From Hymenobacter chitinivorans DSM 11115 (lineage in GTDB: Bacteria; Bacteroidota; Bacteroidia; Cytophagales; Hymenobacteraceae), in the NCBI RefSeq assembly GCF_002797555.1, contig NZ_PGFA01000003.1, positions 62,001 to 126,000 of the forward strand: a stretch of 64,000 nt of DNA, written 5' to 3'. Positions 10,952 through 43,837 of this stretch are shown here, in pieces. Numbering within the stretch: the stretch's first letter is position 1; every line of letters starts with the position of its first letter. The notes below the pieces were generated by a model. The model saw only the letters and a list, made by a program, of their open reading frames with translations, did no database searches and was not told where the DNA came from. Position numbers and translations under genes: made by a program.

Positions 10952-11028
10952 CGTTTTTAATGCGCGGTTCTGCGCCAGTCGAACATCAAACTCACCATTT
11001 CACCAGTTCACCATCTCACCACTTCACA
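10918..11028. repeat. word-repeat inverted pair (GGTGARATGGTGA)
   Basis: The left arm, 10918-10950, is built of GGTGAAAT / GGTGAGTG / GGTGAGAT words. The right arm, 10989-11028, is the reverse-complement kind (CTCACCATTTCACC, CACCATCTCACC). The left arm contains the aminotransferase stop; the right arm ends at the tyrA start. Confidence 0.75.
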
Positions 11029-15319: not shown

Positions 15320-15486
15320 TCCTCCTGAGCCCCGCGAAGGACCTTCCTCGCCTATGTGACAAGCATGATTAAATGCACCAAAGCCCTTTCCTGCCGGCGC
15401 GGGAAAGGGCTTTTGCACGTTGGTAAAGGCCGCAGCGGGGTAGGTGAGGAAGGTCCTTCACTCTGCTTCACTCTGCTCAGGATGAC
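15320..15486. repeat. REP-like inverted-repeat element around the conserved hairpin core (copy 2)
   Basis: The left arm CCTCCTGAGCCCCGCGAAGG ... CTTCCTC and the right arm GAGGAAGGTCCTTC ... CTCAGGATGACGG are imperfect reverse complements. The right arm carries an internal duplication of CTTCACTCTG. The core AGCCCTTTCC / GGAAAGGGCT is at 15379-15414. It lies between convergent genes, like copy 1. Confidence 0.8.
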
Positions 15487-18878: not shown

Positions 18879-19080
18879 GGTAGTATGTATGTAGATGCCC
18901 GAGGCAATCTTGTTTTAGTTCAAATTTTACACGGAGCCCACGTCAATGTAGTCGATTAACTCCCGTATAGCGTCCGTATAGGCAGTGTATAGGCAGCCTT
19001 TACCCAACCGAAAAGGAAGCTCCTGAGAGAAATACTATTGGGCGGCTAGTCCATTACTATGCTGATAACTCACCATTTCA

Positions 19081-20481
19081 CTATCTCACCACTTCACCGA
19101 CGGGCAACCAGGCGCAGAACTCGGTGTGGCCGGGCTGGGAGTGCACCTCCAGCCGACCGCCGTGGTTGCGGATGATGCGCTGGGCAATGTCGAGGCCCAG
19201 GCCCGTGCCGTCGCCGGCCTGCTTGGTGGTGTAGAAGGGCTCAAAGATATGGGGCAACACTTCGGGTTTGATGCCGGGGCCGTTGTCGAGGATGAAGACC
19301 CGCAGGAAGTCGCCCTCCAGCCGGGTGCGCACGGTGATTTCGCCGCCCGGGGGCAGGGCGTCAATGGCGTTGTCGAGCAGGTTGGTCCAGACTTGGTTGA
19401 GGCTGCTGACCTGCCCCCGGATGGCGGGCAATGGCTCGGTGTAGTCGCGCACGAGGCGGATGTTCTTGGCCCGCAGCTGAAAGCCCAGCATATTTAGGGT
19501 GCTTTCGAGGCCGGCCTTCACGTCGAGCAGGGCGTAGTCGCCGCCCCGGTCCATGTGGGAGTAGGTTTTCACGTTCTGGACCAGGGTGCTGATGCGGGCC
19601 CCGCTTTCCTGCACGTCGTGAATCAGGCGCAGCATGGTGAGCTGGCCTTCGAGCCAGGCAAAAGCCGCCGGCAAGGCGGCCGGGGGCAGTGCCGCCCCCA
19701 CCGGCTCGAGCTGCTCCATCGTCAGGCCGGCTTCCATCAGACCGGCGGCCAGGCGGTAGCCGTCGGGCACGCCCTGGTCTTCGAGCCAGGTAGCAATTTC
19801 GTCTTCCCGGTCGGCGCACACCAGGGCCGACAGCACATGCACTGGCGACTCGCCGGGCACGGCCAGGGCGGCCAAGGCGGCCAGGGCGTCGGGCTCGGGG
19901 CAGTGGCGCACCAAATCCAGCAGCAGGCCGGGCTTGGCGGCGGCCCGCTCCTGCAGGGCCTGGGCGCCGCGGGCAATGGCGGCGGCGGGGTTGTTGAGCT
20001 CGTGGGCTAGGCCGGCCGAGAGCTTGCCCAGGGCCCGCAGCTTCTCGTCGCGCTCCTGCCCGCGGGCCTCGTCGCGGGCCCGGTCGCTCATCAGGCTCAC
20101 CAGGCGCTGCACCAGCTCGGGGCTGGCCTGCTCGAGCTGGGGGAATAAGTCGCGGTGCAGCAAGTACAGCACCGTATGGCCCACGGCCAGGCCGTAGGCA
20201 CTCGCGGTGCGCAGGCGGGAGTAGGGCAGCACCCCGCTCACCTGGCCAGCTTCCTGGCGGAAAATCGGCTCCCGCTGCCCGTTGCGCACGGCGTAGTATT
20301 GCAGGCCCCCGGCCAGAATGGCCATCATGTATTGGGCCTCGTCGCCGGGCTGGAGCACGGTTTCGTTGGGAGCATAAGCCCGCCGCTCGCCGTGGGCAAT
20401 AAGCCAGTCGAGGGTTTCGGGCGGCAAGCCCACGAAGGTAGGAACGGCCAGCAGGTCGGCAGCGGTCAGGGTAGCAGTCAT
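19081..20481 (-). CDS. histidine kinase with N-terminal cyclic-nucleotide-binding-type domain
   Basis: A soluble 466-residue sensor kinase with no membrane segment. Residues about 10-130 resemble a Crp/cNMP-binding domain (ETVLQPGDEAQYMMAILAGGLQYY). The H-box is GKLSAGLAHELNNP with His160. The catalytic domain has the N-box NLLDNAIDALP, DNGPGI and GTGLGLDIAQRI. The ATG at 20481 starts the domain; an upstream extension in frame is not supported. It precedes the receiver-flavoprotein gene by about 200 bases, so phosphotransfer to Asp63 of that protein is plausible. Its C-terminal codons (VGEVVR) and stop fall inside a GGTGAAGTGGTGAGATAG word tail. Confidence 0.87.
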   Translation of the reverse strand: MTATLTAADLLAVPTFVGLPPETLDWLIAHGERRAYAPNETVLQPGDEAQYMMAILAGGLQYYAVRNGQREPIFRQEAGQVSGVLPYSRLRTASAYGLAVGHTVLYLLHRDLFPQLEQASPELVQRLVSLMSDRARDEARGQERDEKLRALGKLSAGLAHELNNPAAAIARGAQALQERAAAKPGLLLDLVRHCPEPDALAALAALAVPGESPVHVLSALVCADREDEIATWLEDQGVPDGYRLAAGLMEAGLTMEQLEPVGAALPPAALPAAFAWLEGQLTMLRLIHDVQESGARISTLVQNVKTYSHMDRGGDYALLDVKAGLESTLNMLGFQLRAKNIRLVRDYTEPLPAIRGQVSSLNQVWTNLLDNAIDALPPGGEITVRTRLEGDFLRVFILDNGPGIKPEVLPHIFEPFYTTKQAGDGTGLGLDIAQRIIRNHGGRLEVHSQPGHTEFCAWLPVGEVVR

Positions 20482-26528: not shown

Positions 26529-27548
26529 ATGGCTTCTACTCTTACCGACGGTCTGAATTTCCTGAGCAAGCTCACCCCGCGCCGGGCCCTGAACACGGCC
26601 CAGGTGGTAGGTGGCTACGCCCTGAGCAAGCTCACGGGCCGGGCCCGGCACTGGGGTTTGCCCCTGGCCCTGAGCTTCGAGCCCACCACCAGCTGCAACC
26701 TGCGCTGCCCGGAGTGCCCCAGCGGCCTGCGCAGCTTCACGCGGCCCACCGGCATGCTGCCCGACGAGCTCTTCAAACGCACCATTGACGAGCTGCACCA
26801 ACGCCTGTGGTACCTGATTTTCTACTTCCAGGGCGAACCATACCTGCACCCCAACTTCCTGGACCTGGTAAAGTACGCCGCCGACAAGGGCATTTACACC
26901 GCCACCAGTACCAACGCCCACTACCTCAACGACCACAACGCCCGGCGCACGGTGGAGTCGGGCCTCGACCGGCTCATTATTTCCCTCGACGGCACCACCC
27001 AGGAAGTGTACCAGCAGTACCGGGTGGGCGGCAAGCTGGACAAAGTGCTGGAAGGCACCAAGAATATTGTCAAGTGGCGTAAAGAGTTGAAATCCAGCAC
27101 GCCGCGCATCATCTTCCAGTTTCTGGTGGTACGGCCCAACGAGCACCAGATTGAGGATGCCAAGCAACTGGCCAAGGACCTGGGCGTGGACGACGTGTGG
27201 TTTAAAACGGCCCAGATCTACGACTACGAACAAGGCTCCCCGCTCATTCCCACCATCGACTACTACTCGCGCTACGAGAACAACAACGGCACCTGGAGCA
27301 TCAAGAACAAGCTCCTGGACCACTGCTGGAAGATGTGGCACAGCTGCGTTATCACCTGGGACGGTCTGGTGGTACCCTGCTGCTTCGACAAAGACGCCGA
27401 GTACCGCCAGGGGGACCTCAAAACCGAAACCTTCCGCCAGCTCTGGCACGGCCCCAAGTACCAACAGTTTCGCGCCTCCCTGCTCAAAGGCCGGGACCAG
27501 ATAGAAATGTGCCGCAACTGCACCGAAGGCACCAAAGTGTGGGGGTAG
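26529..27548 (+). CDS. radical SAM / SPASM protein
   Basis: A 339-residue radical SAM enzyme. The 4Fe-4S motif is Cys56-x3-Cys60-x2-Cys63 (SCNLRCPEC). A SPASM-like C-terminus holds further cysteines (DHCWKMWHSC, VVPCCFDKD, MCRNCTEG) for auxiliary clusters. Such proteins perform radical modification of peptides or small molecules; no precursor peptide gene is visible nearby, so the substrate is unknown. The protein starts MASTLTDGLN, just after a GACCTTTG box. The stop codon is the first base triplet of the long inverted repeat at 27546-27795. Confidence 0.85.
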   Translation: MASTLTDGLNFLSKLTPRRALNTAQVVGGYALSKLTGRARHWGLPLALSFEPTTSCNLRCPECPSGLRSFTRPTGMLPDELFKRTIDELHQRLWYLIFYFQGEPYLHPNFLDLVKYAADKGIYTATSTNAHYLNDHNARRTVESGLDRLIISLDGTTQEVYQQYRVGGKLDKVLEGTKNIVKWRKELKSSTPRIIFQFLVVRPNEHQIEDAKQLAKDLGVDDVWFKTAQIYDYEQGSPLIPTIDYYSRYENNNGTWSIKNKLLDHCWKMWHSCVITWDGLVVPCCFDKDAEYRQGDLKTETFRQLWHGPKYQQFRASLLKGRDQIEMCRNCTEGTKVWG

Positions 27549-27795
27549 CGGTGAATGAGTGAGTTGTCGTTCGATGGCGCCTGTCCTTGTGAGACGCAGA
27601 TGCAGTAACCCGTCCTCTGAAATATGCTGCGGTTGATAATGTGAAAAGCCCTTTCCCACATGCGTAGGAAAGGGCTTTCTTGTAAAAGAGCGTTGGTCAC
27701 TACCAGATGAAAGATTGACGCCGCTTAATGCGTGGATGTCCTCCGTACTCGCAAGGACAGGTGCCACTGAACGACAACTCACTCAATCACCGCTA
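27546..27795. repeat. long nested inverted repeat anchored on two convergent stop codons (core copy 3)
   Basis: The left arm, beginning at the radical SAM stop (TAGCGGTGAATGAGTGAG ...), pairs at 25 of 26 positions (27547-27572 with 27769-27794) with the right arm that contains the stop of the erythromycin esterase homologue. A second pairing, CTGTCCTTG / CAAGGACAG, continues inward, and the centre holds the hairpin AGCCCTTTCC / GGAAAGGGCT (27641-27680). It probably serves as a bidirectional terminator or structured 3' end. Confidence 0.9.
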
Positions 27796-29091
27796 TTCCG
27801 CCCACGGGTACATATCCGGGGGCGTGTGTTGGGCTACTTCGGTGGGCAGGGGGTGGAGGGCCTGGGTGTGGTCAATGAACAGGAAGGCGTCGTAGCGCTC
27901 AGCCATGAGGGAGGGCACGTAGTTGCCGAACTGCTCAAACTCGGGGCGGTAGACCACGCCGATGGCCCGGTGGCCGAAGGTTTGCTTCAGGGCAGCTGTG
28001 CCTTTGAGTTCCGGGGAAAGCAGCAGGGCGTTTTCGCCTTGTAGCTGGTTGTGCAGCAGCTCTTCCCAGGAGCCGCGGATGGCGCGCGGCACGGGCATTA
28101 CCTCCCAGGGCGCCCCCCACTTTTTGCCCGCAATAACGCTGCCCTGGTAAGAGCCGAAACCGACGGCAAACACCTGGTTCCGGCCGTACATCTGCCGGGC
28201 CAGCTGCCCGATGTTCACGGTGTTGTCGCGGGCCATGTCGGTGTAGCGGGCGTCGCCGATATGGGTGTTGTGCTCCCAGATAATAGCCTTGCTGTCGGGG
28301 CCGTGCAGGTCGAGCAGGCGGGTAAGGGTTTCCATCATGTGGCCGTCGCGCACGTTCCAGGAGGCGGGGCCGCCGCTAATCATGGCCCGGTAGTAGCGCT
28401 CGGCATTCACGGCCACCAGGGCGTTTTGCTCGGCGGCAAAGGCAGTTTCCCGCTCCAGCCCGGCCGGCGGGGTACTCGTGCGCAGCTGCCGCCGTAGGCT
28501 TTGCAGCATGTGGGTCACCTCGTCCTCGCAGTCATCCGACACGAAAGCCACGTGCTGGGCGTACTCCTGGGGGTCGTCGCCGTAGGGCTCGAAGCACTTA
28601 AAGGCCTGGTGAGCCGCGGCCACGGCCCCGTCGCCCTGCTTATTCACGAAGTGTAGAATTTCCTGCAGCGACTCCCAGAGGCTGTATACGTCGAGGCCGT
28701 AGAAGCCCACCCGCTCGGGCAGGGGCCGCTGCTGGTTGTGGCGGTGCAGCCAGTCGATGAGGGCCGCTATTTCCCAGTTGCCCCACATCCAGGTCGGCCA
28801 GCGGTTAAAGGTTTGCAGCAGCCGGGCCGCGCTGCCGTACTCCGGCTGGTCCTGCTTGATGGCGCAGTTCACCTCGAAGCAGTCGGGCCAGTCGCCTTCC
28901 ACGGCCATAAACTGGAAGCCTTTCTCCTGAATCAGGCGCTTGGTCAGGGCCGTGCGCCAGGTATAGTACTCGTGGGTGCCGTGGGAAGCTTCGCCGAGCA
29001 GCACGATACGAGCGTCGCCGATGGCCGCCATAAGCGGGTCGAGGTCGGCGGCAGAGCGGAGCGGGTGGGTGGGGAGGGAGGAAGTCTTCAC
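27793..29091 (-). CDS. erythromycin esterase family protein
   Basis: A 432-residue member of the erythromycin esterase / succinoglycan biosynthesis superfamily, with VLLGEASHGTHEYY near residue 31, the VEGDWPDC segment near 65 and WEHNTHIGDARY near 270, which supply the family's Glu/His active-site residues. Characterised relatives hydrolyse macrolide lactones, but most chromosomal homologues have unknown substrates, so a resistance role is not implied. The start is a GTG at 29091; no ATG gives the conserved N-terminus. Confidence 0.85.
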   Translation of the reverse strand: MKTSSLPTHPLRSAADLDPLMAAIGDARIVLLGEASHGTHEYYTWRTALTKRLIQEKGFQFMAVEGDWPDCFEVNCAIKQDQPEYGSAARLLQTFNRWPTWMWGNWEIAALIDWLHRHNQQRPLPERVGFYGLDVYSLWESLQEILHFVNKQGDGAVAAAHQAFKCFEPYGDDPQEYAQHVAFVSDDCEDEVTHMLQSLRRQLRTSTPPAGLERETAFAAEQNALVAVNAERYYRAMISGGPASWNVRDGHMMETLTRLLDLHGPDSKAIIWEHNTHIGDARYTDMARDNTVNIGQLARQMYGRNQVFAVGFGSYQGSVIAGKKWGAPWEVMPVPRAIRGSWEELLHNQLQGENALLLSPELKGTAALKQTFGHRAIGVVYRPEFEQFGNYVPSLMAERYDAFLFIDHTQALHPLPTEVAQHTPPDMYPWAE

Positions 29092-29884: not shown

Positions 29885-30160
29885 TTTGAGTCTAATATGC
29901 TAATGTGGGGAATGGGCTCAGGTGCTAATGTGATTAATGTGCAGAATGTGGGGTGAATGTGTCCTTGCGAGCTTGCGAAGCAACCCGTCTGCTGAAATGC
30001 GCCAAGTATCCTTACGTGAAAAGCCCTTTCCCACGCATGCAGGAAAGGGCTTTCTGGTAAAAGGGCAGGTCGTACTGCGCAGAGGACGGATGGCCACGGC
30101 TGCGCCTCGCAAGGACAGACGATTAGCACATCAGCACATTCCTCCCCATTCGCACCTTAA
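29885..30160. repeat. nested inverted-repeat element with word repeats (core copy 4)
   Basis: The outermost part carries iterated GTGCTAATGTG-type words (29885-29945), answered by AGCACATCAGCACATT and CCCCATTCGC at 30124-30157. Inside are GTCCTTGCGAG (29960-29970) and CTCGCAAGGAC (30107-30117), and in the centre the hairpin AGCCCTTTCC / GGAAAGGGCT (30016-30055). It lies between suhB and the FeoB-associated gene, both on the minus strand; no gene is present in this stretch. Confidence 0.8.
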
Positions 30161-43282: not shown

Positions 43283-43726
43283 ATGGAAAGTAAACGACAG
43301 CAAAAGTTTGCCAGCCTCCTGCAGCAGGACCTGGCAGCCGTCTTTCAACGCGACTTACCGCACCTGTTTCCCGGCCTACCGCCGGGCATCAGCACCATCC
43401 GGGTGTCGCCCGACTTGGGCGTGGCCCGCGTGTACCTGAGCAGCCTGCTGGCCAACACTGGCCCGGCCCTGCTCGAACTGGTGCGTGACAACAGCAAGGA
43501 AATCCGCCAGGCCCTGGCCAAGCGGATTCGCCAGCAGGTGCGCATCATCCCCGAACTGGTTTTCTTCCTCGACGACAGCGCCGAGTACGCCGCCCACATG
43601 GACGCCGTGCTGGGCAAGCTCGACATTCCGGCTGAAACGCCCGAGGACCCCACCGACCCCAAAACCACCGACGAGCCCAAAGGCCCCGCCCGCCCCAAGC
43701 TCTTCGCCGACGAGGATAGTGAATGA
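43283..43726 (+). CDS. rbfA: 30S ribosome-binding factor A
   Basis: A 147-residue protein. Residues 1-112 are RbfA (RQQKFASLLQQDLAAVFQRD, IRVSPDLGVARVYLS, VRIIPELVFFLDDSAEYAAHMD), which assists 16S rRNA maturation in the 30S subunit. A 35-residue Pro/Asp/Lys-rich tail follows (PEDPTDPKTTDEPKG). ATG 43283 is used; upstream codons are intergenic. The last codons and stop (GATAGTGAATGA) run into GAGTGAGTGAATGAGTG word repeats. Confidence 0.9.
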   Translation: MESKRQQKFASLLQQDLAAVFQRDLPHLFPGLPPGISTIRVSPDLGVARVYLSSLLANTGPALLELVRDNSKEIRQALAKRIRQQVRIIPELVFFLDDSAEYAAHMDAVLGKLDIPAETPEDPTDPKTTDEPKGPARPKLFADEDSE

Positions 43727-43837
43727 GTGAGTGAGTGAATGAGTGAAGCAGCCTACGGCGCCGGACCGCGCCAATTGAACACTTCACTTATTCACCCACT
43801 CACCACCTCACTCATTCACCATTTCACTCCTTCACTG
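43718..43837. repeat. word-repeat inverted pair (GAATGAGT) between rbfA and a methyltransferase gene
   Basis: GTGAATGAGTGAGTGAGTGA and ATGAGTGAAG (43719-43747) are answered by CTTCACTTATTCACCCACTC and CCTCACTCATTCACCATTTC (43783-43837). It begins within the rbfA end and finishes just before the TTG start of the next gene. CCTACGGCGCC is shared, inverted, with the 41597 element. Confidence 0.78.

Follow-up and report, generated by a model that had tools for sequence, protein, structure and literature searches.

In Hymenobacter, hundreds of intergenic gaps are filled by palindromes that often run right up to a stop or start codon, and comparison between species indicates that the two arms of such a palindrome stay matched to each other as their sequence changes completely from one species to the next. 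The inverted repeat at positions 27546-27795 of the window (i.e., the 64,000-nt stretch of the Hymenobacter chitinivorans DSM 11115 genome analyzed here) consists of two nested dispersed elements, a pair of outer arms and an inner REP-like dimer (Table 1). It seems moderately probable that these are REP/MITE-like intergenic palindromes with minisatellite arms that template switching keeps alike, while selection on the adjoining coding sequence sets their limits.

Table 1. Features of the inverted repeat and its flanking genes (window positions)
Feature	Position	Strand	Basis and remarks
SPASM/radical SAM gene	26529..27548	+	ORF, Pfam Radical_SAM and SPASM; ends in the TAG stop (27546-27548) with which the left arm opens
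Outer palindrome, left arm, type B, (GTGANNTR)n then GTCGTTC	27546..27581	+	Sequence, inverted-repeat search, family copies
Nested REP-like dimer, left half (TGTCCTTGTGAG...CCCGTCCTCTG)	27582..27619	+	Dispersed copies
Central hairpin AAAGCCCTTTCCCAC-ATGC-GTAGGAAAGGGCTTT	27645..27678	.	Best-conserved section of the dispersed core
Nested REP-like dimer, right half, ending CTCGCAAGGACA	27707..27759	-	Sequence, inverted repeat, dispersed copies
Outer palindrome, right arm, type B, ends CTA	27760..27795	-	Sequence, inverted repeat; closes with the TAG stop (27793-27795) of the esterase-like gene
Erythromycin-esterase-like gene, convergent neighbour	27793..29091	-	ORF, Pfam Erythro_esteras PF05139, E 2.7e-113

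The sequence-only reading had described a 250-bp nested inverted repeat reaching from stop to stop of two convergent genes, and this repeat is indeed present. Its 48-nt arms (27546-27593 and 27748-27795) show 90% complementarity and lie 154 nt apart; in their first 26 positions, read directly from the sequence, 25 of 26 are paired (TAGCGGTGAATGAGTGAGTTGTCGTT vs TAGCGGTGATTGAGTGAGTTGTCGTT), with both stops inside the arms as had been claimed. The central hairpin was also recovered (27645-27659/27664-27678, 15 nt, 93%). A second inverted pair that had been reported, CTGTCCTTG/CAAGGACAG, does exist but merely continues the same arms. Among 92 convergent gene pairs with a gap of at least 40 bp, drawn from contig C3 and 120 kb of contig C6, the stop-to-stop match at this locus had the top score (72, followed by 55), and the 99th percentile of shuffled controls was only 20. 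Arrays of this kind are of low complexity and some inverted matches are expected, yet chance or an artefact of composition is a vanishingly improbable explanation: the folding energy of the 250-nt repeat as RNA is -134.5 kcal/mol (z = -13, equalled by none of 200 shuffles), and inverted repeats scoring at least 50 were found in 210 of 1040 real intergenic regions but in none of 1040 dinucleotide shuffles. For the radical SAM protein, all nearest named relatives belong to Hymenobacter.

A genome search with the repeat returned 52 matches at approximately 50 places, mostly covering query positions 43-220, that is, the inside of the repeat and not its outer arms. Approximately 30 fetched copies of this core share the order TGTC(A/C)TTGCGAGG ... 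CCGTCCTCTG ... AAAGCCCTTTCC hairpin ... GGACGGATTG ... CTCGCAAGGACA, and most start with TGTC and carry GACA at the end. The core (27582-27759) resembles a REP-like head-head dimer of the CGTC/TGTC-tagged kind (Di Nocera and colleagues 2013, PMC3733652), with which it shares the terminal tag, the dispersed distribution and the head-head dimer arrangement. Core copies such as L013 and L017 form, by eye, stems of 5+4 bp with an internal loop and a 3-nt terminal loop, and the window copy is degenerate; the reference monomer of GTAG/CGTC REPs has a stem of 8-9 bp and a loop of 4-5 nt. Core copies are surrounded by short-period arrays of the AATGTG or GTGA type. Further AAAGCCCTTTCC hairpins in the window were found at ~938-980 and 15380-15410, both in convergent pairs and inside TCCTGAGC-type inverted repeats, and at 29960-30120, inside a TGTCCTTGCGAG dimer with AATGTG-type arrays on either side.

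Two types of outer array were distinguished, type B, the GTGA type with a degenerate 8-bp unit, (GTGANNTR)n, and type C, the GTTGTTAG type; the GTGA-type arms of the window copy read TAGCGGTGAATGAGTGAGTTGTCGTTC. The pattern GTGARNTRGTGARNTGGTGA matched the genome 113+124 times at no more than one mismatch, compared to 1+1 matches for the reversed control. The GTGA pattern is plentiful in many, but not all, Hymenobacter genomes; among the other genera in the family sample, it is plentiful in some members of one (g5: G136, G140, G148 and G152) and near background in four. Arm units form dispersed families, each specific to species: the GTTGTTAG pattern matched 338 times in this genome (G000), 144 times in G015 and once in G022, and the GGTTTTTGG pattern 31 times in G039, 23 times in G046 and 3 times in G000. 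Elsewhere in the window, a GTGA-type palindrome at 43719-43835 (C3:105719-105835) fills the gap of a tandem gene pair; on the left it overlaps the upstream stop, and on the right it comes to 4 nt from the predicted start. Single GTGA arrays are found on the minus strand at 10992-11027, ending 1 nt before an ATG start (TTCACA|ATG), and at 19070-19097. Unusually long one-sided arrays in G005 (C1:932717-932808, ~11 GTGARRTG units) and G022 (C49:178005-178076, ~10 GGTTTTT units) suggest active slippage of units.

The exact start at a stop codon is not peculiar to the radical SAM/esterase pair. With gene ends taken from a simple home-made Markov gene finder on 1.64 of the 5.87 Mb (28% of the genome), 47 of the 50 type B arrays beside a stop codon start no more than 4 nt from it (3.2 expected), as do 21 of the 25 type C arrays (2.9 expected), where the expectation is the crude one of uniform placement and the array patterns, but not the array positions, were defined after examples had been seen. 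Start codons lie within 4 nt of 19 of 41 type B arrays (3.2 expected on the same crude basis) and 5 of 25 type C arrays. Stop codon usage is shifted too. The genome uses TAA, TAG and TGA 647, 492 and 133 times, respectively; the stops beside type B arrays are TAG (21), TGA (16) and TAA (10), and those beside type C arrays are TAG (16), TAA (3) and TGA (2), so that usage moves to the codons supplied by the arrays, TGA and TAG for GTGA arrays and TAG for GTTGTTAG arrays. Taken together, genome-wide abutment and shifted stop usage indicate that the exact start at the stop is a property of the family. Abutting arrays take over the stop codon; the 339-aa end of the radical SAM gene is conserved in nearly all relatives examined. 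The proposal that gene ends are selected to be mutually complementary was not supported, since conservation of the coding ends does not depend on the presence of arms and the array takes over the stop. Truncation of C-termini by insertion was discarded, as the radical SAM, nuoG and metF products of close relatives have equal lengths with or without arms.

A functional 3'-end structure, i.e., a bidirectional terminator or an mRNA-stabilising stem whose arms are kept complementary by selection, would fit the strong predicted stem with its central AAAGCCC/GGGCTTT hairpin, the location of most arrays at gene 3' ends and the terminator-like hairpins that arm-less relatives carry in the same gap. 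This explanation nevertheless appears quite improbable. The arms turn over completely, in sequence and in presence, between close species, and palindromes of this family also occupy the junction of nuoG and nuoH, where an operon is expected, and reach up to start codons, which makes a dedicated terminator function unlikely. In addition, no intrinsic terminator (GC-rich stem plus T-run) was found in 27300-28100 by a scan whose loop limits may miss a long stem, a promoter scan at the locus found nothing, and an Rfam search of the repeat gave no match up to E = 1. Pairing of the two mRNAs at their 3' ends, which the sequence-only reading had also raised, is possible and would be expected for any transcripts overlapping here.

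Comparison of orthologous junctions showed different arms at the same site. At the 3' end of the radical SAM gene, GTGA arms begin 0-2 nt past the stop in nine relatives (G014, G015, G005, G046, G036, G020, G051, G112 and G039). The core is present at this locus in G000, G014, G015 (partial) and G039 (as a solo unit) and in none of the other arm-bearing species. Where the neighbour is a DUF gene, four species (G022, G021, G068 and G059) have a gap of ~90-98 bp with an ordinary terminator hairpin; in G005, G020 and G112, arms fill this gap and no trace of the terminator is left. Of 30 species compared at nuoG-nuoH, 7 have a junction of 0-4 bp (e.g., TAAtctgATG), and several close relatives have a palindrome of 89-104 bp there; the arm units look unrelated and number at least four, among them GTTGTTAG, GGTTTTTGG, GTTGCCAG and GTGCCTGG. 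In six species the palindrome's length is near-constant at 89-91 bp, which favours insertion of a unit over gradual growth. Mosaic arms were found in G022, G039 and G046; at nuoG-nuoH, the left arm of G022 still has the outermost 19 nt of its G000 counterpart, and the unit further inward differs on both arms, which looks like an existing element that was rewritten. A doxX-like junction is 5 bp long in 2 of 25 species and holds various palindromes in most others; in G014, a AACGTCATG... inverted repeat lies there between array-like edges, again a case of nesting. At metF, palindromes touch both ends of the gap in nine species, and ordinary gaps that contain a terminator-like hairpin were seen in other species.

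The main rival explanation, which we consider distinctly less probable than the favoured one although it accounts for much of the data, is repeated insertion of an ordinary mobile MITE/REP family beside stops, through target choice or survivor bias, with species-specific active subfamilies and an arm match that is simply that of the master copy, without rewriting in place. The dispersed and species-specific arm types, the near-constant 89-91 bp unit and the clean 0-5 bp junctions of some species all agree with insertion, and different family members inserting repeatedly could yield much the same picture. In other bacteria, too, REPs between convergent genes lie less than 20 bp from either 3' end, and the termini of GTAG REPs often provide the TAG stop (PMC3733652). 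Against insertion alone, the occupied and empty nuoG-nuoH and doxX sites showed no target-site duplication, no linked transposase was seen in an examination of two Y1_Tnp genes, ordinary terminator gaps are replaced without a remnant and not just added to, and the arms are mosaic in the three species named above.

A further point against this rival is that the two arms of an element resemble each other more than they resemble the arms of other elements, also when all the elements compared belong to one family of a single genome. At nuoG-nuoH, the mean score of arm matches in 11 species was 38 within an element and 17 between elements (p = 5e-5), and at the radical SAM/esterase locus it was 37 within and 27 between in nine species (p = 0.0015), in permutations that treat species as exchangeable. 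The same excess was found among the copies in this genome, for GTGA (n = 32) and GTTGTTAG (n = 17) elements (p = 5e-5 each). Identity to the relatives is 87-92% for the radical SAM coding sequence and 41-64% for the initial 40 nt of either arm. G015 and G036 show weak concordance at this locus, and no polarity of arm matching from the loop outward was found (outer third 85%, inner third, which includes loop sequence, 72%). The suggestion that the element is copied or repaired as one palindrome is therefore supported in part: arms match within the nine species at this locus, at nuoG-nuoH and across genome copies, but G039 (L050) and G025 (L076) carry the left arm alone at the radical SAM 3' end.

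Under the favoured explanation, copies would enter gene junctions as units of ~85-120 bp, and slippage in 8-10 bp units together with template switching between arms (quasi-palindrome correction) would rewrite both arms jointly. It is established that template switching creates and maintains stems (PMC8794818), and joint rewriting in place is what we infer from comparing species. Non-coding spacer would be lost or overwritten until the palindrome reaches selected sequence, i.e., a last codon, a start codon or a promoter; because the arrays contain stops in all three frames, the gene's own stop can join the arm, and in convergent pairs the outcome would be a palindrome exactly from stop to stop, as at 27546-27795. 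A bolder version, which we hold only tentatively and think rather unlikely, is that a very active and perhaps enzyme-driven process in Hymenobacter rewrites non-coding junctions into palindromic minisatellites, replacing junction DNA up to the codon and renewing both arms at once, with shape and position kept and sequence free. If the favoured explanation is true, "exact" coincidences of repeats and stop codons are explained, covariation in stems at gene ends does not necessarily imply a selected RNA structure, and the genus provides arm homogenisation in many natural replicates (the same site in close species, with matched arms and new sequence), so that template switching and REP-like spread could be tested via comparison alone.

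MITEs and similar elements (Correia, ERIC, RUP and BOX) are short, palindromic, dispersed, intergenic and without coding capacity, and the outer elements described here are like them in these respects. Unlike MITEs, which have conserved end sequences, the outer elements have minisatellite ends, and neither a target duplication nor, in an examination of two Y1_Tnp genes, a parent transposon was found. RAYT/TnpA-REP systems also involve palindromic repeats, and this genome has two Y1_Tnp genes; neither has an array or core motif within ~1.5 kb, which leaves a RAYT link of the arrays unsupported, and no transposase or mobilising enzyme for the arrays was identified from these two genes. One of them, the RAYT-like L107 (G000:C1:1282472-1282816), is flanked by an unrelated palindromic repeat, AAAGCCCCAGCGGGGCGA.

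The GTAG/CGTC-tagged REPs are dispersed palindromes that mostly occupy the intergenic space of convergent or tandem ORFs, in many cases beside 3' ends, and the CGTC type (TGTC also) forms head-head dimers, has no transposase association and occurs in Bacteroidetes (PMC3733652). Since known REPs adjoin 3' ends and can supply the stop (PMC3733652), exact abutment of repeat and stop has a precedent. The outer elements differ from these REPs in being ~85-120 bp long, in building each arm from repeat units of 8-10 bp, in having arm sequences that are not conserved between species and in that many fill a whole stop-to-start or stop-to-stop gap; the window arms, 36 nt each of (GTGANNTR)n, carry no tag, whereas these REPs have a GTAG or CGTC tag and a 20-40 bp unit. 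As far as we found, the filling of whole gaps by minisatellite arms of free sequence has no precedent, and the open-access literature on Hymenobacter repeats and other repeat papers described no such element. In quasi-palindromes corrected by template switching (PMC8794818; in E. coli, PMC7202029), arms are kept complementary via mutation and not selection, as is proposed here. Those cases concern RNA genes and reporter hotspots, whereas in Hymenobacter the process would affect hundreds of dispersed elements between genes and replace arms in their entirety.
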